A stretch of DNA of 40,190 nt from Melioribacter roseus (lineage in GTDB: Bacteria; Bacteroidota; Ignavibacteria; Ignavibacteriales; Melioribacteraceae): assembly GCA_020722005.1 (NCBI GenBank), contig DYLP01000023.1, positions 1 to 40,190 of the forward strand, in the 5' to 3' direction. Under the pieces are notes generated by a model. The model ran no database searches and had not been told where the DNA came from. It was given only the letters and a program-made list of their open reading frames with translations. The translations under genes and the position numbers were made by a program. This document shows, in pieces, positions 6,573 through 39,913 of this stretch (within the stretch, counting starts at the first letter, position 1; the number at the start of each line of letters is the position of its first letter).

Positions 6573-9500
6573 TTACAATTTTCTTGCCGATACGAGCGGC
6601 TTCTTGAAAACAGTTTTCACTCCCCCCTCGTCAATTATTTCTATTAATAGGATGTAAATTCCAGCTCGCAGTGGTTTTAAATTATCATCGAGACCATCGT
6701 ATACAATTACGGTTTCAGGACCTACGGGACGACTCTCTTCGATAGTTTTAACACTTCTTCCTTTGCTGTCGAAAATGCGGATTCTTACCAATCCTATTTT
6801 ATTTTTCTGTTTGATTGTAATTGTAGTAAAATCTTCAAATCCGTCGTTATCCGGCGAGAATGGGTTTGGATAAATTGTTATTGCCTCTTCAGCTGTGATT
6901 CCTGATGTATATATAGAATTAATTCTGCCTGGGGTCGCTCCATTCGGATCGACCGATGTTCTCCAGTTGTTTCGATCCGTCGACGAGAATAAAGGGTTAA
7001 TTCGTTCAATCGATTTGTTTTTTGTGTTATTTATTAAGGGACTGTGCCATTCAGGATTATAAAACAGAGAATCAATAGTATTACCATAAAAATCGACAAG
7101 TATGATTTCGGCTCCAGAATTTGGCAAACTGAAAGATTTATCGACGAAAAGTTTTGCTTCAGTTTTATAGTAATCTGTTAATGCAGAATCATTCCCTATC
7201 AGAAAATATTGGCGAGGTAAAATCAATGTAAGTTCATTCACAATGCGAAGATTATTATGTCCTCCGACTGATAAACCACCAATCTGAAGCGTATCATCCG
7301 AGTTATTAAAAAATTCAATGAACTCGGAATTAATTTCATCAGGCTCGTACATTATTTCATTGATCACAATTTTTTGTTCCTCTATATGTGGCAAATTGGA
7401 TACCGAATTTTCTTTAGAAGGCGTAGAACCCTCGGGCGATAGTGACAATGCCCAATTAACCGAATCGCAGCCGCTTGAATTCGGTGATATCTTTTCGAGC
7501 GATACACCTTTTTTATAGCCCCACCCGGACTTATAAAATAAACTGTCTATTCGATTGTCGTATGAATCACAAATAACAATACCGTCTTCAGAATTATTTA
7601 ACAACGGGAATTCCGGAAGCAGAATTACATCTCTGGAGTACTCGTTTTTATCGGCTGCTCTTACAACTTTATATTGAAAAGGCGCGATGTATAGATCTTC
7701 ATTAATTATAATTCTTTTGCCTGGTTCGGGAATTACATCCGCAATACTCCACCCTTTTAAATTAATTTCATTTTCAGTTGTGTTGTATATCTCAATCCAC
7801 TCAGGTTCATTCTCACTCGGATTATACATAATTTCGTTAATCACAATTGCACCCTTTTTATAGCCGAACGTTAATTTTGCTTTCCGTTCGTTGTCGTTTA
7901 TATTTTCATCGTACAAGTAAATAATTTTAACCAGTAAATCGAAATTGTCTTTGGTGAGATATCTTTCGCTGGTACAAACAGTAATAGTATCAAACGGCGA
8001 TAATCGGTCATAGACAAATCTTTCCAATAATTCGTATACCCCGTTTTTTGCCACAAGCATCTCGACAATAAAATTGTTTGCGTCTTCTGTACCCTTATTA
8101 ATCACATCGCAACAAATTCTCAAAAGGTCGTTAGATTCTGCATACTCCTCTTCGAAGTAGATGTTTCCTACTGCAAGGTCGTGCCTATTCAAACTAACGC
8201 TGTTTTTTCTACCAGGTGTTGACTCTGAAGTCTCCAATGAAAAACACCAATTTAACGTATCGTTACTTGCTAAATCGAAGCTGCGTCTCTCATACGAAAC
8301 GCCTACTTTTTTAACGCCCTCAGGGTGATAGAAGACTGAATCAATTATAATACCCCTCACATCTTTTATTACAACTGCATCGCTGTCGTTATTTAATACT
8401 GGCAAGTCTGCAATCTTAATTCGTATATCCCGATCATAATATTCATAAAAAGAAGAATCGGAAGCTATAACCAAATAATCGTGCGGATTAACAAAAGAGC
8501 TATCTATTTCAGAGACGGTAACATTTGTAAACCTGTCATTGATTGTAAATTCATTTAGGTAAATCACATTTTCAGAATTATTATATAATTCAATCCATTC
8601 GGGCATTTCGTCACGAGGATAAAACATAATTTCGTTGACCAGTAGAGAAGTCGGTAAATATCCTGGAATTATTTCAATGCTTTGTTTATTGTTTGTTGTA
8701 TCCTCGTCATATTCCGACTTGAATAATATTTCCAGATTCACAGGACTCGATATTCGGAATAGAGTATCGAATCTCACGATATTTTCTGTGTCAATGGTCA
8801 GCATTTCATTTTTTATTTCTTCTTTTAGGCCATTCGACAACATATAAATTATTAGATTGCCGGAGAGTGGATGTATTCCTCGATTATTTAGGACAATGGA
8901 CAAACTGATGGTTTCTCCTGCGAGCGGTTTATCTGGAAAGTAGTAAACACAGTCTATTATCACGTCGTAATTTTTAATTGCATTAGAATTTTTTTTGCCC
9001 GGAGTAGAACCGCTTACAGCAAGTGATTCCAACCAATTCAAAGAATCGACACCGTTTTCATCGGCGCTTATTCTTTCGATCGATTTTCCGTTTTTACCTC
9101 CCCATTCAGAATGATAATAAACCGAATCAATTGTTCTTCCAAGCGAATCGTTGAGTACAAGCCCGTAGCCGTTGTTCCTCAAGTAATGAAAGTCCGCTAA
9201 AATAATTCTTAAATCGGTATAAATTTCCATTATCGATGAATCGTTGCTGGTGAGAATATAATTTCCGGAATCGATAAAATAATCTTCGTTTGACAAATTG
9301 AAATGCTCGTCTCCGACGATCAATTTCATTTTTTTCAAATTAATTTTTTCTAATGAATTGTTATAAATTTCAATCCACTCAGGTACTGGTGGATTTGGTG
9401 CATACATAATTTCGTTAATAACCAGGTCGTTTTTATTAAGTAATTTATCAACGTAGTCAATCGAAAAGAACATCGTGTCATTATCGTTAAATTGGTCTTG

Positions 9501-11120
9501 GTCGTTTGATACTGTGCAATAATATTTTTTCGTTCCAACTTTACCTTCCTCGATTACAAAAATGCAATTTCTTGATTCGTCGGTTTGTATAAATTCTTGA
9601 GTACAGTAATCAAGCATTTCATTTTCTTCGTCAAATATTTTTACAATGCACTTCTCTATTGCCGAAAGTCCGATGTTTTTAATTCTTACTTCACTTTCAG
9701 TAATCTCATTAATTATCTGAATAGGATTTTTCACAATAACAGTGTCGACTTCAATATCGTACATTTTGTGCGACAATGAATTAATCCTTCCCGGCGTGCC
9801 CTGTGTCTTGCTCGATGTTGCCCTCCAATTAGTCAACTGATTTGTCGGCGAATCGACGCTGATTCTTTCAAGCGATTTTCCAGAAACGCCTCCAAATTCA
9901 TTCGTATAGGAAACGCTATCGATAATATTTTGATATTTATCTTTTAAGATAACATCGTCGCCGCCGTTATTTAACCTAGGAAGATTTGTTATCAAGACAT
10001 CGAATTCATGTTTATAATATTTTGTTAGTGATGAATCCCCTGTAATTACGATATACGACTCAGGATAAAAATAGCGATCAGCTTCAGTCAATAATATCGA
10101 AGTTTTACTATCAGCAACATACCATCCTTTTATATTCAGAGTATCCTCGCTTCTGTTAAAAATTTCTATCCATTCTGGCTCTTCGTCAGCCGGTGCGTAC
10201 ATGATTTCATTAATTACAATATCGTTATAATCTGCCTCTGGCTTAAAAATTTTTATTTCGATTTCGGCACTGTCATTCGGACTTATTTCATCGTAGTCAC
10301 TTATGAGAAACACTATTATTTTATATATTCCTTCTAAGGAAAATTCGTGGTTAAAATTAATATTTAATGTGTCCCCAGAAAAAAGATTTGAGTAAGTTTC
10401 GTTAAATATTTCAGTAGTATCCGAGCCGTCTACTGATGCCAGCACTTTTACACTAAATTCATTCGACTCTTTTAAGCCATAATTGAAAATTTTTATTGTA
10501 AAACCTATACTTTTATTTATCAATTGTTCGGTATCCGTTACAGACAGTCGCACAATGCCGAGATCGTAATTCACAGGGGAGACCGAATTTTTTCTGCCAG
10601 GCGTGCCTCCGAATACTGATGAATTTTTCCATCCGAGATTTTCGTCCGCACTTACCAATTCATCTGAATACCCCGCTGCATTATCCGCAGTATAAATATA
10701 ACTGTCGATAACATTCCCGTTCTTATCGACAAGAGTAACCTCTCTGTTCGAAGAATTCGACATACCCGAACTACCGAAGGCATTGTCGTCGATTGTCATT
10801 ACGATAACAGTATCTGGGATCACATTCATATAAGCGCCAGAAACAAAATCGTAATCACCCTCGAGAATAACGGCATAACTTCGTGGAGGAAGCAGACTTC
10901 CGTTTTTTAACGGCAATAAATAATCTGCCGAGGAGGTGTGATATTTTATTCCGAATTCGGTTAAATCAATTGTTTCTGAAAATGATTTGTTGAATAATTC
11001 AATGAATTCTCCGTTGCTTTCTGAAGGACTGAACATTACTTCATTCAGTATCAGATTCTGTGCTATAATATTAGTAACAACGGGAAAAAGAAATGCGAAT
11101 AAAATTTTCCATTGTTTCAT
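6573..11120 (-). CDS. Giant secreted protein with six lamin-tail domains and a FlgD-like/type IX sorting C-terminus
   Basis: A 1515-residue exported protein. A signal peptide (about 1-22, ending in IIAQ) is followed by six lamin-tail domains, each opening with a variant of VINEIMYxPxxxxPEWIEIYN, at about residues 23, 302, 569, 829, 1095 and 1254. Most close with a TPGRxNS motif. Between the first four and their successors lie CARDB/Ig-like beta domains of about 100 residues, giving a repeating unit of about 260 residues (0.8 kb); domains 5 and 6 follow directly. The C-terminus (from about 1417) begins IYPNPFSPDNDG and has the FlgD-Ig layout typical of type IX-type sorting signals in this group. 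It is probably a cell-surface or matrix protein, possibly binding DNA or polysaccharide; no catalytic domain is seen. The frame opens at a TTG 48 bases upstream, but the ATG at 11120 starts the signal peptide. Confidence 0.9.
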   Translation of the reverse strand: MKQWKILFAFLFPVVTNIIAQNLILNEVMFSPSESNGEFIELFNKSFSETIDLTEFGIKYHTSSADYLLPLKNGSLLPPRSYAVILEGDYDFVSGAYMNVIPDTVIVMTIDDNAFGSSGMSNSSNREVTLVDKNGNVIDSYIYTADNAAGYSDELVSADENLGWKNSSVFGGTPGRKNSVSPVNYDLGIVRLSVTDTEQLINKSIGFTIKIFNYGLKESNEFSVKVLASVDGSDTTEIFNETYSNLFSGDTLNINFNHEFSLEGIYKIIVFLISDYDEISPNDSAEIEIKIFKPEADYNDIVINEIMYAPADEEPEWIEIFNRSEDTLNIKGWYVADSKTSILLTEADRYFYPESYIVITGDSSLTKYYKHEFDVLITNLPRLNNGGDDVILKDKYQNIIDSVSYTNEFGGVSGKSLERISVDSPTNQLTNWRATSSKTQGTPGRINSLSHKMYDIEVDTVIVKNPIQIINEITESEVRIKNIGLSAIEKCIVKIFDEENEMLDYCTQEFIQTDESRNCIFVIEEGKVGTKKYYCTVSNDQDQFNDNDTMFFSIDYVDKLLNKNDLVINEIMYAPNPPVPEWIEIYNNSLEKINLKKMKLIVGDEHFNLSNEDYFIDSGNYILTSNDSSIMEIYTDLRIILADFHYLRNNGYGLVLNDSLGRTIDSVYYHSEWGGKNGKSIERISADENGVDSLNWLESLAVSGSTPGKKNSNAIKNYDVIIDCVYYFPDKPLAGETISLSIVLNNRGIHPLSGNLIIYMLSNGLKEEIKNEMLTIDTENIVRFDTLFRISSPVNLEILFKSEYDEDTTNNKQSIEIIPGYLPTSLLVNEIMFYPRDEMPEWIELYNNSENVIYLNEFTINDRFTNVTVSEIDSSFVNPHDYLVIASDSSFYEYYDRDIRIKIADLPVLNNDSDAVVIKDVRGIIIDSVFYHPEGVKKVGVSYERRSFDLASNDTLNWCFSLETSESTPGRKNSVSLNRHDLAVGNIYFEEEYAESNDLLRICCDVINKGTEDANNFIVEMLVAKNGVYELLERFVYDRLSPFDTITVCTSERYLTKDNFDLLVKIIYLYDENINDNERKAKLTFGYKKGAIVINEIMYNPSENEPEWIEIYNTTENEINLKGWSIADVIPEPGKRIIINEDLYIAPFQYKVVRAADKNEYSRDVILLPEFPLLNNSEDGIVICDSYDNRIDSLFYKSGWGYKKGVSLEKISPNSSGCDSVNWALSLSPEGSTPSKENSVSNLPHIEEQKIVINEIMYEPDEINSEFIEFFNNSDDTLQIGGLSVGGHNNLRIVNELTLILPRQYFLIGNDSALTDYYKTEAKLFVDKSFSLPNSGAEIILVDFYGNTIDSLFYNPEWHSPLINNTKNKSIERINPLFSSTDRNNWRTSVDPNGATPGRINSIYTSGITAEEAITIYPNPFSPDNDGFEDFTTITIKQKNKIGLVRIRIFDSKGRSVKTIEESRPVGPETVIVYDGLDDNLKPLRAGIYILLIEIIDEGGVKTVFKKPLVSARKL

Positions 11121-11233
11121 TGCCCTGCTATTTGCTAATGCCCTGCCTGAAAAATAAACAATCCTCAATTAATTTCACAACAAAATGAGAAATAATTATA
11201 TTGCAAGTAGCCATAATTAACAGGAACAAAAAT

Positions 11234-13621
11234 ATGAAAGGACTTCTTCGGGTTACCGTTTTATTTTATTTAATCTTTATTTACACTTCTAATTGTTTTT
11301 CACAAGCCGACTCTACATTTTACAAAATTTACAAATTGGGAATTGATGATAATCGTGTTATGGAGCATCAACATTATCTTTGCAATGTATTCGGAGGCAG
11401 GATAACTGGCTCGCACGCATACACAGAGGCTGCATTGTGGGCGCTGGACAAATTCAAAGAATAGGGATTAGAAGCCTATCTTGACGAAGTTGGAGAAGTA
11501 TCTGTAGGATTCAACAGAGGTCCATGGTTCGGAAAAATGGTTGAGCCATCCAGTAAAAATCTTACGTTCGGAAAACCGTCGTACACAGCTTCAACGAGAG
11601 GCGCTCAGGAAGGATATGCAATTTATTTATCCGATTCCATTATTATTAACAGCTCGAATCTAAAAGAGATAGCCGGAGGGAAATGGGTGCTGATCGACGG
11701 TGTGAATAATGGCTGGGCACGCGATAAAGATTCTATTACGATAATTACCAAAAGACTGACGAATGCCGGCGCATTAGGAACTATACAGAAGTCGCCCTCC
11801 CCGTTGAGACTCCTTGAATCCCGCTGCGTTAATTCCTGGGAAAATCTACCTACTTTACCCGACATAAAATTACTTGCCGATGAATATGACGAAATATTTA
11901 ATTTAATAAGAGAAAATAGGTCTGTTAAACTTCAGTTCGACATTAGAAATCATTTTTATCGTGGACCGATAAAATATCATAACGTAATTGGGATATTGAA
12001 AGGCAGGGAGAAACCCGACGAATATGTAATACTTGGAGCGCATCTCGATTCCTACGACGGCGCAACCGGTGCAATCGACAATGGTTCGGGCGTAGCAAGA
12101 ATGATGGAAGCAATTAGATTATTGAGTGCCTCAGGCGCAAAGCCGAAACGTTCAATAATGATACAGTTATACGCAGCTGAGGAAAGAGGTCTGGTCGGTT
12201 CCAAATCGTGGATCGAAAGGAACAAATCATTGCTCGATAAAATTTCTATAATGTTCAACAATGACGGAGGTACAAATCCTCTTGTTGCTTTAGGATTACC
12301 CGAATCGATAATCAAGCAGGTCGAGGGTGTACTAAGTCCCATAAAACAACTTCAACTTGAATATCCATTTGAACTGGATACAATAGCAAGATTCAAACGT
12401 GCTGGCAGAGGAGGCACAGACAGTCATTCTTTTGTAATGAATAACATTCCTGCACCATGGCTTATTCTCAAAGGACCTCACGTTTACAGACGAACATGGC
12501 ACTCAATTTTCGATACTTACAACGAAGTAATTCCATCGGCTCAAAAACACTCTTCGTTAATTATTGCCCTCGCCGCTTATCAAATAGCTAACATGGATTC
12601 TTTAATTTCACGTCAGGGTGCGTTTCTTCCAGATGGATTATACGCCGAATTAACGACCAACAAAGGGAGAATATTAATAAACCTCGACTACAAGCGAGCT
12701 CCTTTAACTGTTACTAATTTTGTGAGTCTGGCAGAAGGCACAATCAAAAATTCCGTATTACCCGATGGCGTTCCTTTTTTTAATGGCTCTATATGGCATC
12801 GCGTTGTACCCGGTCACGTTATACAGGCAGGCAAAGCTGTTACCGGAGCCGAAGGACCCGGTTATGAATTTCCCAATGAAATTAGTCACGAATTACATCA
12901 CAACAAAGCCGGTATGGTTGGCATGGCTAATGCCGGTCCTCACACAAACGGCAGCCAGTTTTATATTACACTCGCAGATAGGTCATACCTCGACGGCAAT
13001 TACACTTTATTTGGCGAAGTTGTCGAAGGCTTAAATGTTGTCTTTAATATTGCAGAAGGTGACACCATCAAACGCATAGAAATTGTCAGAATTGGAGAAG
13101 AAGCCAATAATTTCAGACCAACAACAGAATCTTTCAGGGAACTTGTCGAGCAGGCACGAAAAAGAGTGGAGGAAGAAAAGAAATTAAAAAAGAAACTTGA
13201 AGAAGAAAAAATCAATAAATTATTTCCCGGAATAAAAATATACAATGATGGTTCAGGACATTTAATAATTCAAAAGGGAAGCAACGATAATATCAGCGCA
13301 CCTGCAAAAATCAAGGTAAAGTATTCAGGGTACCATTTTATAAACAAAACTAAATTTTTTTCCGACGAGCTCGGATTTCCAGAGAATACTGTCAATGCCG
13401 AAGAATTCGTTTTCATACCAGGGAAAACGAACATTAATTCAGGATTGAACAAATATATTCCGCTGATGAAAAAAGGAGAAAAGAGAATTATAATTTTACC
13501 CCCGGATATGGCATACGGTATTTATGGATATTACGGAAGAAACATTGTTAACGGCAAAAGATTTGTAATTCCGCCTGAATCAACTCTGGTCTACGAAATT
13601 GAAGTTATCGAAAAGCAATAA
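11234..13621 (+). pseudogene. M28 metallopeptidase-cyclophilin-FKBP triple fusion, interrupted by an in-frame TAG
   Basis: One reading frame of 795 codons encodes three enzymes: a signal peptide (about 1-25), an M28 zinc aminopeptidase (about 30-455), a cyclophilin-type prolyl isomerase (about 470-620), a charged helical linker rich in Glu/Lys (630-665) and an FKBP-type isomerase (690-795). Zinc-site motifs are visible: GAHLDS, the Asp of AIDNGSG, AAEERG, NNDGG and TDSHSF. The cyclophilin keeps the FHR-like WHRVVPGHVIQAG and the NGSQFYIT motifs. Codon 77 (11462-11464) is TAG, and the frame continues without any shift on both sides. The context FKE-stop-GLE matches the FKxWGL pattern of the family, so TGG (Trp) to TAG is the simplest reading. 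Either the gene is inactivated, or the base is an assembly error, or there is readthrough. A restart at the ATG at 11537 would lack the signal peptide. Start ATG 11234 has an AGGA site; an in-frame TTG at 11201 is less likely. Confidence 0.85.
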
Positions 13622-33335: not shown

Positions 33336-36300
33336 TTAGCCGTTTTCACCGGCAAGTCGGGCAATCTGTAGAAGATAGAATTTCAGTTTATCCTGGTCTT
33401 TTGGGGAGAGAGCCTGTTCTTCAATTTTAATTATTCTTTCAACTTCTTTTAAAGCGCGAATAATATTAATCGGTACTTCGACCATTTCCTGCGAGATGGC
33501 GGCGAGATATTCAACGGCAGCAGAAAGAAATTGTTGCATATTGTCGTCAAAAGACGACTTTGTAAATTGAGGCACCGCTTTTATTTTTTTAGGCGAAAAG
33601 AGATATTCTTTGTATGAGGAACTCGACGATAGAGTGTAGAATGCAATAGCAAGTTCGACAAAACTGGCAACGCGTTGGTAAACCGGTTCTTCGAGCAAAT
33701 CCCAGATTTTCTGACGCCACATTCTGATTTCTTCAGGAATTTTCAAAAGGTATTGCATTTCCTTCAACCATTTATCGTCAACGTTTCCTTTAATGTCTTT
33801 CATTATCTCTTCGAGGTTCGTATTGAACAAATTCTTTTGCAGCAGTACAGCGACATCGGGTCTGAGCGTGGGTAATAAATCCGGAATGAAACAATTGCCT
33901 TCAAAGAATTCTGAAACTTCCAGCCCGTGTCTTCTTAAGAGTTCTTTCTGGAAACAGCTTAGATAATTCTGCATCGAGTCGATATCCTCACGCAATGCAA
34001 TCAATGCCGAATTGCCAGCAGGAAAAGCTTTTTCCATTTTGCTCAAATATTTAAGGTCGACGTCGTGATAAATTCTGAGTGTTTGAAGCATTTCATAAAC
34101 GGGAAGTTTAGGAAGAACCCGTTCAGATATCAAGTACATCGGTTCACCTTCGGTAAATTCGCGCTGCGAAAAGTTGTTGAGTGCCCGGAATAATCCTGTA
34201 GTCAATTGATTAATACCGAGGATGACGCTTTGCGATTGATTATGCGAAATGGCGCGTAATAGACTTCCGTATTTAGAGAATGGAATTGTACCGGCAATTT
34301 TTTCGAGTATTTTTTGTCCTGCACCTTCGCCAATGCCCTGTCCAGGACGCTCAGTGGGACGGTCGCGTAGCGGTGGTGTAGTCCTTCCAATAAAATATGA
34401 GATTAGATGAATACCAACAACGTCTTCATCTCTGCCGTACAAAATCTGGCGAAAATTTTCACGGTGCAAATTCAGGAATTCGTTGAAGATTTCGTCTTTC
34501 TTGCCGACAGTAAGTCTTTCAAGTTCCTGCAAGCCTCTCGTTTTAAATTGAAGTCTGGTTTCAGACAAAGGTTCGCCGGCTCTTTGAATTTCTTTTTCGT
34601 TGAATTCCTGAGCTTCTTTAATATGATAAAGAAGCTGTGCTCTTTGGAAAGTTGATATATATCTGAGTTTTTCGGAAATATTGCTCTGAAAAGTTCTCAG
34701 GTCGCCTCCTGCAAAAACACCCAGCAAAGGAGTGGTTGCATACTGGGTACTTTTTCGAGTCGATTCAGCCAGATACTTATTAAATCGGTTCTGCGATAAA
34801 TATGAATCGATGAACAATTCCTTGCCAGCAACTTCCGAATAATACCCGCCCTGACGTTGCATTGGCTCGCCGCTGCCCATTTTCATGCGCACTCGTCCAA
34901 TTAAATTATTCGCTGCCAGCCACGTCATTAATTCGTACTTCGCTTCCCTGTAAAGATTCATACCCATTGCCTGTCCAACCTGCTGACTTAAATCTGAACC
35001 TGCAACAAATATTTCTGTAATAATTTCATTAAAACGTTCTGCAGTATCCTGATTGATTCTTCTGCTCTGGAAGGAATATTCCCAAATTTTGTCGAGATAA
35101 TTTTTAATATTACTTACGGAGTCGAGGTCTTCGAACAAGGGTACCAGCCATACTGCGGGCAGACCAAGATCATTGTTTTCTCTTAAAATTTCTTCTCGCT
35201 TCGACCTCATTTTACGGTCAAGCGATATTAAAGCCTCAGGTTTTGTGGTCATGCTCACCTGCAAGGCCAGAACCATTCCAGGATTCCCGTACCTTGCGGC
35301 TATTTCATTAATTTCGTTTATGTTATGCACCGTCGTGTCGATGGCAAATTGATCCTGCGCTGTAATTAATTTTTGATGGATACGAGGCGTTACAACGAAC
35401 CTTCTCAATAAGTCCCTGTACATCATGACTTCAAGAAGTAACCGTTTATCCGAAAGGTTTTTAATTATTTCCGGAATATGACTGTGCAAAGTTTTTCGTA
35501 ATCTCTTGTTCAAATCGAAATAATATTCTAAAGTATTCCTTCTTCTTATTCTAAGTTCGAGCATTTTTCTTTCAAGACGGTCGTTATGGTGCCACAAACG
35601 CGTCAGCGGGTCCTGAGCAATATGAAGTTTCATACCGAGTTTTCTCAATTTGCTCGGTTGTAAATTAAATGGAAGTGTGCCGCGGTATCTTTTTTCGAGC
35701 TGATGCGTAAGTTGAGTAATCTGGTTTAAGAGAGCTGTAAACCGCTTGTTCCGTTGAGGGAGTTTTTCCAATTCTTTTATAAGATATTCATCAAGCTCAA
35801 GCGAATGATTATTTCCGATCAGCATTTCCAATATTCTTGCCTGACGCACAATATTCTCAATTAATACAAAAGCCACCAGACTGTGCCCCTGGCCCGAAGG
35901 TCGATTACTGCCGTCCCAATCGCCCCAGAAAGATAGAAATGTTTCGAACTGACAGTCGGAATAAAGGGAAATAAAATTCTCGGCTGATATTATCGTCTTC
36001 AAATCGAGTATCAATTCATGAGGTTCTTCGTTCGATATAATGGCAACGTTTAATCCCAGATATTCTTTAACAAGCTCCTCTTTCAATTTTTCCAGCTCAT
36101 TATTTGAGGGTATGATTCCTCTCAAAAGATTTTCGATTATGCGCTCGGCAATTATATCAGTTTTAATCGAATACATTTGAGTGGGATGAACAGTTCTGTC
36201 GAACATTCTGCTACGGAAAGCTTCCTTGCGCCTTTCGAGTGAATCTTTATAAAATTCGCGTTCCAGAATTGATTCGAGTTGTTTTTGATTGCCCGAAAGA

Positions 36301-38927
36301 ATATATCCAGCATATTCGTTTACATACGATTGAAGCTCTTCAAACTTGTTTTGATAGATGGACAACTTATAAGGTATAAATTCATCTAGAAATTTCTTTT
36401 TATTAAACGAATAGTCCCCTCCACCATTCATTCTATTGAGATAACCAGTAAAGATATGTTCAATGTTTTCGAGAATATGTTTTTCAAGTACTTTCCAGTA
36501 ATTCGAATAATCTACAAGAACAACTTTTTTCTTTAGATTAATTTGCTTTACTTTTAATTGACGCTTGTTATAGTTTGCAGATTCTTCGGCAATCATTCTA
36601 TTGAGATCGATTAGAACACGTCGTGTTTTCCTTGCAAGTACTTCGGCACCGTCCGAACCACCGAGCGTTAGTCTGAAAGATTTTCTTCCTGTTTCAAAAC
36701 CTTTTTCTGTACGTGCAAAAGTAGAAAGTGGAATCAACCCTATTCCCTGTCGTGCCAGTCCTGAAGCAAGCCAATCGAGCGACAAGCCAGCCGGCAGATT
36801 TTCAATAATCATTTGAGGATACATGCTTCCGACAGGTGGTTTTATTTTTATATTGAATCTGTTCCTTTCGGCAGGAAGGCTTTCGGCGGCTTCCTCCAAT
36901 GCTTTGCTTCTGTCGTAAAATATCCTGTTCCGTAATTTATGATATGCTCTGACGTCTTCAACTTTGTTACGATAAAGTAGATACGAAATGTAAATTGCAG
37001 AAACGTTATCACGAAAAGTATCAATTATACTTTGAAATTTATTTCGTAATTCGGGAAGTCTTATTTCGACAACCGATAGACGCGCCCCTGCAAACGAATC
37101 GGTCTTCGACATCGAATGAATTGTAATTAAATACTTTCCTTTTTCACTCGTAAGATAACCTTCTTCAACTAGTTCTATGCATAACTGACGCAGAGTATCG
37201 ACTTTTTCCAGACCAACAAATGGTTTAACATTTTGATACGACAAATCGTCGACGACCTTAATTTCCCTTTCGAGCAGCCACTTGAGCAGTTCTTTCAAAT
37301 CGTTTCTATCGAAAATTTGTCCCGTAGCATTATGGGGGTTGTTTAAAACCACCGCACCATATTTTTTCCAGCCGGCATCTTTCGACAATTTATTCTGAAC
37401 TGCATCTATAATTGCTTTAATATCAATTTGAAAATCATCTGTTAATGGAACGGTACATACTTCGGGAAAACAATGTTCATAAGTCCAGCTCAGATCGAGT
37501 ATAATAGCTTCTCTGATGCCACAGTGGAATCCGAGTATACTGAGCGCCGTTCTTGACGAGCCGCTTACAACCAGTGAATCTTCAAGTTTATACTCCGGAT
37601 GATGATTAATAAATGCGCTGAGGTAAGACGTCTTAAGGTCTTTTATCCAATCGTCATTGTTGAAATTATCGACCATTTCATCGTACAACTCTACTGCGTT
37701 GTACGAAGCAAATCTGTCGTAACTAATTTTCGAAGAAAATCTTTTATGTTTACCGGTATGCGAACTGAATTCTTCTATGATCCTGTTAATCTTCTTTTCG
37801 ACCTCCCTTCCCTTCAATTCGACAATATTACCGATAATTTTTTCGGCGGTTCTGGCAAAACCTGAAAGTGGTTCCAGTCCAAGCCTAACAGATTCGCCTT
37901 CAATTTCAGCATCAACCTTGATGTCAAGCGGTTCCTTTTCTTCCTCGATACCCTTCTTCAGCAGATAATTCAACAGAGTAATTTCCGTCGAAGAGGGTGT
38001 TCCCTTTAGTTTGAAATGTACATTTTCCAGAACTTTTATAAATTCGTGGTTGCCCGCAATGAATACCAGCGAAAAGCCTTTCAGCCTGTTTGAAAAAGCC
38101 GATGGAGTTATAAAACGAAGGACTCTGTTCATCATTTTGGCTTCACGCGCCAGCGAAAGGTGATTCGGTGCATTATTTATTTCAACAAAAAAGAGAGGAT
38201 ATTCTAAGCTAAGATTCCTCAAATGTCTTCTTGTCACTTCATTTGTAATTTTGCCCAGTATAAGAAATTTCGGTGCATTTTCGTTATTCAATATACTATT
38301 CAATTGAGGCAGTAAAGCCTCTTCTACATTTCCAAGATTATGAAATCGTACACCTTCATATTTTTTTAAATGTTCAGGTATTTCACAGTCGAACAGAAGA
38401 ATATCTGCCGGTAGATTGACCATAAATTCGGAAACGGAATGAAAAAAAACGCGTAATGTCTCGGGAATACCGTTTGAAGCCAGTATTATTTCCCTCTTAC
38501 CCGATTTAGCACCTGTATCGTAAGAAAGAGGTTCTTGTTGTTTATGTGAAAGCCAATCATTAAAAAATTCAATTATAAATTCGGGTTTAGATTTAATGTA
38601 TCCACCGCGCGGCGAATATGGTGCTGCCCTTTTTATTAATTCGGCTATCAATTCAACTTTTGGAGCGTCTTCATTTGACAAATCTAATTCACGGCAGAAA
38701 GCTTGAGGGTTATCTATCGATAAGCTATCGTCGAGCAGATCAATACCCATTGCCAATCGCATAAAAATAGAGTAAAGCCGTTCATCCTGAACTGGATTTC
38801 CGATATGGAAATTTACTCTTTCGTGAACTGGTACCGAAGAAGCGGCAGTTGATTCGCTAATTTCCGAAATTTTTGCCGCTTTAATTGGCTTCAGTTCAAA
38901 AAGTAACAGCGGGTCTTTTGAAATCAT
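33336..38927 (-). CDS. Giant fusion: pseudo-aminotransferase + class I/II aminotransferase + PEP carboxylase-like protein
   Basis: A 1863-residue protein in three parts. Part 1 (about 35-390) follows an aminotransferase fold (FHIGNP, YSPRGGY, ASNGIPETL), but the PLP lysine site reads SAFSN (Asn280), and the Asp/Tyr pair is Glu249/Asn252, so it should not bind PLP normally. Part 2 (about 400-790) is a class I/II aminotransferase with NNPHNATG (529-536), Asp561-x-x-Tyr564, Lys608 in HSMSK, Arg616 and Arg752 in SFRLTLG. Part 3 (about 800-1863) matches PEP carboxylase in order: TVHPTQ (His914), GDWDG (1002-1006), VSMTTKPEAL, VPLFEDLDS (Glu1266), GSDLSQQVG (Asp1312), the loop MGSGEPMQRQGG (1350-1361) and a terminal LAGENG. 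The Lys after SDS is Gln, and the HGRGGSxGRGG loop is altered, so carboxylase activity is uncertain. It could make aspartate from PEP or be regulatory. It follows the SPFH gene by 8 bp. ATG 38927 lacks a clear ribosome site. Confidence 0.8.
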   Translation of the reverse strand: MISKDPLLLFELKPIKAAKISEISESTAASSVPVHERVNFHIGNPVQDERLYSIFMRLAMGIDLLDDSLSIDNPQAFCRELDLSNEDAPKVELIAELIKRAAPYSPRGGYIKSKPEFIIEFFNDWLSHKQQEPLSYDTGAKSGKREIILASNGIPETLRVFFHSVSEFMVNLPADILLFDCEIPEHLKKYEGVRFHNLGNVEEALLPQLNSILNNENAPKFLILGKITNEVTRRHLRNLSLEYPLFFVEINNAPNHLSLAREAKMMNRVLRFITPSAFSNRLKGFSLVFIAGNHEFIKVLENVHFKLKGTPSSTEITLLNYLLKKGIEEEKEPLDIKVDAEIEGESVRLGLEPLSGFARTAEKIIGNIVELKGREVEKKINRIIEEFSSHTGKHKRFSSKISYDRFASYNAVELYDEMVDNFNNDDWIKDLKTSYLSAFINHHPEYKLEDSLVVSGSSRTALSILGFHCGIREAIILDLSWTYEHCFPEVCTVPLTDDFQIDIKAIIDAVQNKLSKDAGWKKYGAVVLNNPHNATGQIFDRNDLKELLKWLLEREIKVVDDLSYQNVKPFVGLEKVDTLRQLCIELVEEGYLTSEKGKYLITIHSMSKTDSFAGARLSVVEIRLPELRNKFQSIIDTFRDNVSAIYISYLLYRNKVEDVRAYHKLRNRIFYDRSKALEEAAESLPAERNRFNIKIKPPVGSMYPQMIIENLPAGLSLDWLASGLARQGIGLIPLSTFARTEKGFETGRKSFRLTLGGSDGAEVLARKTRRVLIDLNRMIAEESANYNKRQLKVKQINLKKKVVLVDYSNYWKVLEKHILENIEHIFTGYLNRMNGGGDYSFNKKKFLDEFIPYKLSIYQNKFEELQSYVNEYAGYILSGNQKQLESILEREFYKDSLERRKEAFRSRMFDRTVHPTQMYSIKTDIIAERIIENLLRGIIPSNNELEKLKEELVKEYLGLNVAIISNEEPHELILDLKTIISAENFISLYSDCQFETFLSFWGDWDGSNRPSGQGHSLVAFVLIENIVRQARILEMLIGNNHSLELDEYLIKELEKLPQRNKRFTALLNQITQLTHQLEKRYRGTLPFNLQPSKLRKLGMKLHIAQDPLTRLWHHNDRLERKMLELRIRRRNTLEYYFDLNKRLRKTLHSHIPEIIKNLSDKRLLLEVMMYRDLLRRFVVTPRIHQKLITAQDQFAIDTTVHNINEINEIAARYGNPGMVLALQVSMTTKPEALISLDRKMRSKREEILRENNDLGLPAVWLVPLFEDLDSVSNIKNYLDKIWEYSFQSRRINQDTAERFNEIITEIFVAGSDLSQQVGQAMGMNLYREAKYELMTWLAANNLIGRVRMKMGSGEPMQRQGGYYSEVAGKELFIDSYLSQNRFNKYLAESTRKSTQYATTPLLGVFAGGDLRTFQSNISEKLRYISTFQRAQLLYHIKEAQEFNEKEIQRAGEPLSETRLQFKTRGLQELERLTVGKKDEIFNEFLNLHRENFRQILYGRDEDVVGIHLISYFIGRTTPPLRDRPTERPGQGIGEGAGQKILEKIAGTIPFSKYGSLLRAISHNQSQSVILGINQLTTGLFRALNNFSQREFTEGEPMYLISERVLPKLPVYEMLQTLRIYHDVDLKYLSKMEKAFPAGNSALIALREDIDSMQNYLSCFQKELLRRHGLEVSEFFEGNCFIPDLLPTLRPDVAVLLQKNLFNTNLEEIMKDIKGNVDDKWLKEMQYLLKIPEEIRMWRQKIWDLLEEPVYQRVASFVELAIAFYTLSSSSSYKEYLFSPKKIKAVPQFTKSSFDDNMQQFLSAAVEYLAAISQEMVEVPINIIRALKEVERIIKIEEQALSPKDQDKLKFYLLQIARLAGENG

Positions 38928-38935
38928 TATTATAG

Positions 38936-39913
38936 CTATTCGGTTTTTCTTTCACTGTTTTTCTTTCTACTTTCCGTTAAATTATGGAGCAAGTTCTGGA
39001 ATAGAACGGAAAGCTCGGAGCCTTGTGGTAAATCGGCAGATGACAGAGATACAACCGTACGAGCATTTTTAAGTGTTTGACTTGCTTCTGCAAGACGAGC
39101 AGCTTGAGGAGTAAGAAGCAACAGTTCGGGATTATTCTTGAGTAATTCCAGCTCTTTCGACTCGAATTCGAGTTGCATTTGTTTTCTTTTTAGTTCTTCT
39201 TGAACACGTTTTTCGGCTATTGCAGCTTCTTTCTCGATCTCCTTGTTTTTCAGTTCATATTTTTTCATTTCGAGTTGATTTTCCAACAAAGCAATTTCTT
39301 CTTCAGCTTTGAATTTAGCTTTAGCAGCAGCTATACGAGCTTTCTGATTTAACTCTTCGGTTTGTTCTAAAATACGTGCAGATTCCTGCTGCTTAATGGC
39401 GTCGGCTATTTTCGTATCAAGGATTTCAATCAATTGAATAAAAATCGATACGATTTCCAGACCAAATTTATCTTTACTTATATCCGTATTTTTATTCAGA
39501 AATTGATAAATCTTCTCTCCGCTCAATTCCTCTATTTCATACTTTTCGGTTAATTCTCTCACCCAGCTTTCAATCAATATTTCGAGTTCCTTAGTAGCTT
39601 TCTCTACAGCTCTGGTATTCCATCCGCCGATTTTGATCAATTTATGAATATTCTCGAACGATAGAACTACACTGAAGGTCATTCTAATTTTTATATCAAG
39701 ATTTCCTTTAGCCGTCGAATCAATGTTTAATTGTACCGAATGAATTGTTCGAGGAAGCACCAGACACAAATGACGGGGATAAAATCTACCTTTTTTCAGT
39801 ATGATTTTTCCATCCGATTCATACAAAACTAACTGGTCGGGTTTCCGCAATCGGTATTCATAAAGCAGAAACAGGATTATCACTAATATTATTATTATTA
39901 TTGCTGGCCACAT
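38936..39913 (-). CDS. SPFH/band 7 (flotillin-like) membrane-anchored protein
   Basis: A 325-residue protein with one N-terminal membrane helix (about 3-18, nearly all Ile/Leu), an SPFH/band 7-like domain (about 24-175), a long charged coiled coil (about 175-265, rich in Glu, Lys and Ala) and a C-terminal segment with LTPQAARLAEASQTLKNA and SSADLPQGSEL, typical of this family. Such proteins form ring or lattice oligomers on the membrane and gather partner proteins in microdomains. It should face the cytoplasm with its coiled coil. ATG 39913 has a GGGAG site 7 bases upstream. It is the first gene of a transcript with the giant fusion (8 bp apart), so a physical partnership is the natural guess. 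Confidence 0.85.
   Translation of the reverse strand: MWPAIIIIILVIILFLLYEYRLRKPDQLVLYESDGKIILKKGRFYPRHLCLVLPRTIHSVQLNIDSTAKGNLDIKIRMTFSVVLSFENIHKLIKIGGWNTRAVEKATKELEILIESWVRELTEKYEIEELSGEKIYQFLNKNTDISKDKFGLEIVSIFIQLIEILDTKIADAIKQQESARILEQTEELNQKARIAAAKAKFKAEEEIALLENQLEMKKYELKNKEIEKEAAIAEKRVQEELKRKQMQLEFESKELELLKNNPELLLLTPQAARLAEASQTLKNARTVVSLSSADLPQGSELSVLFQNLLHNLTESRKKNSERKTE

Follow-up and report, generated by a model that had tools for sequence, protein, structure and literature searches.

PEP carboxylases (PEPCs) are tetramers that carry allosteric amino-acid sites. In the Escherichia coli enzyme (PPC), we take R396, R581 and R713 to be ligands of the PEP phosphate, as seen in crystal structures, and the first and last of these presumably correspond to Arg450 and Arg767 of the Flaveria enzyme. 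In maize PEPC, H177 (equivalent to E. coli H138) is the catalytic base and R647 (equivalent to R587) is involved in PEP binding (PMC3894211). In Flaveria PEPC, Lys600 (equivalent to K546) belongs to the bicarbonate site, and Arg or Thr at this position raises both K_PEP and K_HCO3 (PMC6363079); Arg450 and Arg767 are reported as essential in the same paper and in its reference list. As these substitutions imply measurable activity, a Gln at the lysine position alone need not abolish PEPC activity.

SPFH/Band-7 scaffolds are exemplified by flotillin, HflKC and the slipin-NfeD pairs, in which the partner is a protease or NfeD. The window analysed here, a stretch of 40,190 nucleotides from a contig of Melioribacter roseus (DYLP01000023.1), brings relatives of these systems together in two adjacent genes (Table 1).

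The two-gene unit and its distribution

A gene for an SPFH-family protein and a gene for one long chain, in which a class I/II aminotransferase is fused to a PEPC-derived half, form a real two-gene unit that is undescribed in the open-licence literature searched, where no account of such a protein was found. The long ORF, as described in a sequence-only reading of the window, is a real gene. Its homologues occupy 17 loci in Ignavibacteria/Melioribacteraceae assemblies, mostly as full-length ORFs with 53-63% identity over the full length, and the fusion is under strong purifying selection (dN/dS of 0.05 for the whole gene against the same-genus copy). The same-genus genome G153, which consists of one 3.3 Mb contig, holds the pair at 87% identity, and the host genome of the window (2.66 Mb) is 99% complete. 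The fusion occurs in 22 of the 197 class genomes sampled (about 11%). Its two halves are always together, which bears out the proposal that they are fused in one chain: no PEPC-like half devoid of the aminotransferase was found in these 197 genomes or in 395 genomes of the phylum, barring copies broken by assembly gaps, and other phyla were searched by short exact patterns only. Two apparent splits of the fusion gene, L038 and L039 (in genomes G131 and G066), coincide with runs of N and were therefore rejected as assembly gaps rather than real splits. Single-protein searches of Pfam, NCBIfam and PDB sequences returned the aminotransferase as the sole credible match, and no match was obtained in a defence-system library or in plasmids.

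The SPFH gene, which lies 8 bp upstream of the fusion and had gone unremarked in the sequence-only reading, encodes an N-terminal transmembrane helix, an SPFH domain and a coiled coil. Of 13 homologues, 6 match Band_7 (PF01145), the best of them at E 3.8e-8, and the window copy scores below the cut-off of this profile (18.4 vs 23.6 bits). The gene adjoins the fusion in 16/16 homologous loci and is its only conserved neighbour, no metabolic gene being conserved beside the pair. Both genes are found in an identical set of genomes, 22 of 197 (Fisher p 1.3e-29, a value that overstates the count of independent events because the genomes are related by descent). This co-occurrence shows that the SPFH gene and the fusion are functionally linked, not that their products bind each other. 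A paralogue of the glutamate synthase large subunit, with about 42% identity to the gltB of the window, adjoins the pair in L005 (3108-7553) and L014 (6277-10722), and a 195-aa glutamate synthase fragment does so in L016 (14634-15221); this fits a glutamate-dependent transaminase, though weakly.

Two other genes of the window encode multidomain products. In one (11537-13621), a single 694-aa chain unites an M28 peptidase with two prolyl isomerases, of the cyclophilin and FKBP types; the other (6573-11168) codes for a large secreted-type protein that contains the lamin tail domain six times and bears a CHU_C type IX secretion signal.

Table 1. Position of the two genes, of the parts of the fusion protein and of its active-site motifs in the window
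Feature	Position	Strand	Basis
SPFH/Band-7 membrane protein gene, 325 aa, first of the two-gene unit	38936..39913	-	Band_7 in homologues; adjacency
Fusion gene, 1863 aa, ATG start	33336..38927	-	ORF list; 17 homologous loci
Residues 1-330, N-terminal arm and degenerate aminotransferase-like large domain	37938..38927	-	AlphaFold2 model
Residues 331-410, variable linker with long helix	37698..37937	-	Low pLDDT at 331-356 and 390-401; alignment
Residues 411-790, class I/II PLP aminotransferase core	36558..37697	-	Pfam; structure match; invariant catalytic residues
K608, PLP Schiff-base lysine in SMSKT motif	37104..37106	-	Lys in 25/25 homologues
Residues 791-880, variable helical linker	36288..36557	-	Alignment
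Residues 881-1863 (start approximate), PEPC-like half	33339..36287	-	Profiles; hhalign; structure matches; dN/dS 0.035
TVHPTQ, residues 912-917; H914 = E. coli PPC H138	36177..36194	-	hhalign; His 25/25
SFWGDWDG, residues 999-1006, counterpart of PEPC SWMGGDRDGN	35910..35933	-	hhalign; D1003, W1004, D1005 25/25
PLFED, residues 1263-1267; E1266 = E506, metal ligand	35127..35141	-	hhalign; 25/25
GSDLSQ, residues 1310-1315; D1312 = D543 kept, Q1315 replaces K546	34983..35000	-	hhalign; Gln 25/25
MGSGEPMQRQGG, residues 1350-1361, remodelled glycine loop	34845..34880	-	hhalign; residue counts
LRDRP, residues 1520-1524; R1523 = R699	34356..34370	-	hhalign; Arg 25/25
LRAI, residues 1557-1560; R1558 = R713	34248..34259	-	hhalign; Arg 25/25

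The aminotransferase and the PEPC-like half

The assignment of a class I/II aminotransferase with its PLP residues intact is confirmed by a Pfam match (Aminotran_1_2, PF00155, at residues 451-758; E 3.6e-13, 49.9 bits for a cut-off of 19.7) and by six catalytic residues (N533, D560, Y564, K608, R616 and R752) that are identical in 25/25 homologues and correspond to the PLP lysine and to the N194, D222, Y225, R266 and R386 equivalents. The enzyme is therefore active-looking as judged from its residues. An AlphaFold2 model of residues 1-799 (pLDDT 84.6, pTM 0.84) has class I/II aminotransferases as its best structural matches, with a VIA Z of about 31 to LysN. In this model, residues ~145-330 form seven strands in aminotransferase order, and the homologue alignment has no conserved PLP lysine there; they look like a degenerate extra copy of the aminotransferase large domain, in an N-terminal third that the sequence-only reading had overlooked. 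No credible sequence match was found for this domain, and its comparison with the aminotransferase core by hhalign was not significant (P 0.51), so that it is the structure model that marks it as aminotransferase-like. The structural alignments mostly begin at model residue 1-37 and end near 780, but only ~330-390 residues are aligned in them, and the sequence match to BNA3 begins at BNA3 residue 69. The arm at the very start of the protein would thus complete the core formed by residues 411-790.

The remote homology of the C-terminal half to PEPC is established, and it is visible only with the homologues or the structure, not with the window protein alone. The profile search of this half that the sequence-only reading had named as its refuting test gave, for the window protein alone, no Pfam PEPC match even at E=10. 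The window protein stays below the curated cut-off of PF00311, which is matched weakly by 3 of 15 homologues (best E 6.8e-4); PEPcase_2 (PF14010) is matched by one homologue (E 0.0075), and a PF14010 search matched only ordinary PEPCs, at the barrel core. At the sequence level, this half thus does not qualify as a member of the PEPC family. With a reference PEPC profile of 49 members, 17 of the 25 homologous C-terminal halves outscore all 1025 shuffled or reversed decoys. Local hhalign comparisons with E. coli PPC are significant for residues 1190-1400 (P 3.1e-6; PLFED paired with PLFET, GSD with YSD, and the glycine loops with each other) and 1180-1640 (P 2.4e-5), and residues 880-1110 (P 0.004) pair TVHPTQ with TAHPTE and GDWDG with GGDRDG; the global hhalign was uninformative, and a profile of the C-terminal half gave no match among PDB sequences. 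The AlphaFold2 model of this half is poor (pLDDT 53), so that its structural matches are supporting only: Foldseek places a PEPC first (E 0.04), VIA ranks 1-16 are all PEPCs (Z 7.5-8.8), including the archaeal-type 3odm, and the barrel core superposes on 8oj9 with an rmsd of 3.3 Å across 135 residues. The PEPC fold and the order of the motifs are thus recovered by VIA and hhalign. The PEPC landmarks pointed out from the sequence are real and beyond chance, as indicated by the decoy-controlled profile and hhalign, and their claimed order stands. Their claimed spacing agrees roughly with E. coli PPC from H138 to R587, but not after R587, where two stretches exceed their E. coli counterparts by about 50 and 135 residues. 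Similarly, the claimed glycine loop is retained as a pattern but not in its residues (GRGGxxGRGG becoming GSGEPMQRQGG).

The active site is partly kept and partly replaced. The catalytic His H914, the metal ligands E1266 and D1312, and R1358, R1523, R1558 and G1863 are retained in 25/25 homologues, the R699 and R713 equivalents being assigned from hhalign and the C-terminal Gly being equated by position only. In the remodelled glycine loop (MGSGEPMQRQGG), R1358 is the kept R587, S1352 replaces R581 and M1350 replaces H579. Among the homologues, K546 is replaced by Gln, R581 by Ser or Asn and H579 by Met or Leu, each in 25/25, whereas K546 and R396 are present in 49/49 reference PEPCs, R581 in 46/49 and H579 in 44/49, although these references go down to 22% identity. 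No Arg is seen at the R396 position in a weak local alignment, which makes this assignment uncertain. The residues lost would be those that hold the bicarbonate and the PEP phosphate in PEPC. Other residues of the same motifs are newly invariant (K1349, Q1315, E1354, H1562 and N1563). The PEPC-like half is also the most constrained part of the fusion (dN/dS 0.035, the lowest value against the same-genus copy), which argues for a working site. Taken as a whole, this pattern agrees less well with a PEPC, or with a dead domain, than with a site that works on a different substrate.

R581 is also lacking in three of the 49 PF00311 PEPCs, which, like the Flaveria substitutions, speaks against the reading of a changed substrate. 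L116, L119 and L120 are PF00311 PEPC homologues in which the glycine loop reads HGTGG or HGIGG, with Thr or Ile at the R581 position; two of the three genomes concerned (G246 and G197) hold another PEPC too. These three proteins could possibly represent another PEPC subgroup with changed chemistry.

Possible functions of the unit

The anatomy of the fusion, the conservation of its residues, its co-occurrence with the SPFH gene and the selection acting on it are direct observations. For catalysis, substrate and channelling, we infer the following model, to which a probability of about 50% is given: an SPFH scaffold and a bifunctional enzyme, composed of a PLP aminotransferase and a PEPC-derived part with a changed substrate, would act together at the inner membrane. 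The product of the first gene would be a predicted SPFH-family protein, probably oligomeric, with its single N-terminal helix as an anchor in the inner membrane. The second gene would provide, in one chain, the class I/II aminotransferase with its extra degenerate domain and a metal-dependent barrel, whose putative active site would descend from that of PEPC and have retained the metal site (E1266, D1312) and H914. Transamination would convert an amino acid into its 2-oxo acid or back, and this or a related 2-oxo acid, instead of PEP, would undergo metal-assisted enolate chemistry at the PEPC-derived site, candidate reactions being carboxylation, decarboxylation or an aldol-type change of a C-C bond. 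The SPFH partner, presumably by binding the enzyme, would hold the unit at the membrane.

In the sequence-only reading, the second half was proposed to function as a PEPC within a chain that would turn PEP, bicarbonate and glutamate into aspartate, with channelling of oxaloacetate. The fold, the catalytic His, the metal ligands, the R587, R699 and R713 equivalents and the C-terminal Gly are all kept as this proposal predicts, and neither a canonical PEPC nor a PYC_OADA domain was found in the host genome. The function is nevertheless improbable, and the fusion is probably not making aspartate, because important positions of the carboxylating site (K546, R581 and H579) carry other residues in every homologue, to which the apparent absence of the R396 arginine may be added. 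Moreover, the distribution of the fusion is neither complementary to that of ordinary PEPC nor parallel to it, which weakens the aspartate-synthase reading: a canonical PEPC is found in 6 of 22 fusion genomes and in 38 of 175 others (p=0.59), so that six genomes, including that of the same genus (G153), hold both. The host also has two ATP-type PEPCK genes (G000:C41:22223-23614 and G000:C46:14170-15570), and an obligate SPFH partner in the membrane would go unexplained if the product were a cytosolic aspartate synthase.

Given the loss of several substrate ligands, the PEPC-like half could alternatively be devoid of catalysis and serve as a structural or ligand-sensing part through which the aminotransferase is regulated or oligomerised; since PEPCs are tetrameric and allosteric, their fold could indeed be kept for assembly or sensing. 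This explanation is rather unlikely, as the metal ligands, the catalytic His, K1349, E1354, R1358, H1562 and N1563 are invariant and no part of the fusion is more constrained than this half. The perfect genomic linkage to the SPFH gene, in loci that have no conserved metabolic neighbour, might instead suggest that the main role is that of a membrane SPFH assembly (in stress, lipid or protein quality control), non-metabolic, with repurposed enzyme halves. Here, the invariance of all aminotransferase catalytic residues, which suggests that transamination is used, makes such a role very unlikely. As for a chance resemblance or an assembly artefact, with which the lack of any PEPC match in the single-sequence Pfam search would agree, its probability is close to nil: it is refuted by the homologues in 17 assemblies, mostly full-length ORFs, by the decoy-controlled profile match and by the structural matches.

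Comparison with described systems

It is tentatively proposed, at odds somewhat short of even, that the unit represents an undescribed system in which a PEPC-derived site has moved off PEP, has been permanently fused to a PLP aminotransferase and is held at the inner membrane by a dedicated SPFH scaffold; the processing of an amino acid or 2-oxo acid would then take place within a membrane-bound compartment. If this proposal is right, the fusion represents a strongly diverged PEPC branch and the CO2-fixing fold is able to move to other chemistry; an SPFH scaffold would also be paired one-to-one with a metabolic enzyme, and such a simple two-gene unit would allow the question of what bacterial SPFH scaffolds organise to be tested.

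The PEPC-like half shares with bacterial-type PEPC (PF00311; E. coli Ppc) the core of the fold, the motif order, the catalytic His, the metal ligands, the R587, R699 and R713 equivalents and the C-terminal Gly. It differs from it by the replacement of K546 by Gln, of R581 by Ser or Asn and of H579 by Met or Leu, by the apparent loss of R396, by the change of GGDRDGN to GDWDGSN and by longer C-terminal stretches; in addition, no sequence cut-off is reached by the window protein, and the half is always fused to an aminotransferase. With archaeal-type PEPC (PF14010; 3odm), the modelled barrel core appears to align (Z 7.8, rmsd 3.4 Å over 152 residues), but these enzymes are about half the length and the fusion is not a Pfam-level member of PF14010. 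The aminotransferase has the full PLP core and the catalytic residues of class I/II enzymes resembling LysN and kynurenine aminotransferase, to which the fusion adds a degenerate domain of ~280 residues between arm and core as well as the C-terminal PEPC-like half. We know of no described SPFH scaffold with a two-domain metabolic-type enzyme as partner. Like flotillin, HflKC and slipin-NfeD, the unit pairs a membrane-anchored SPFH protein with a partner from the same obligate operon; unlike them, this partner is an enzyme of that type.
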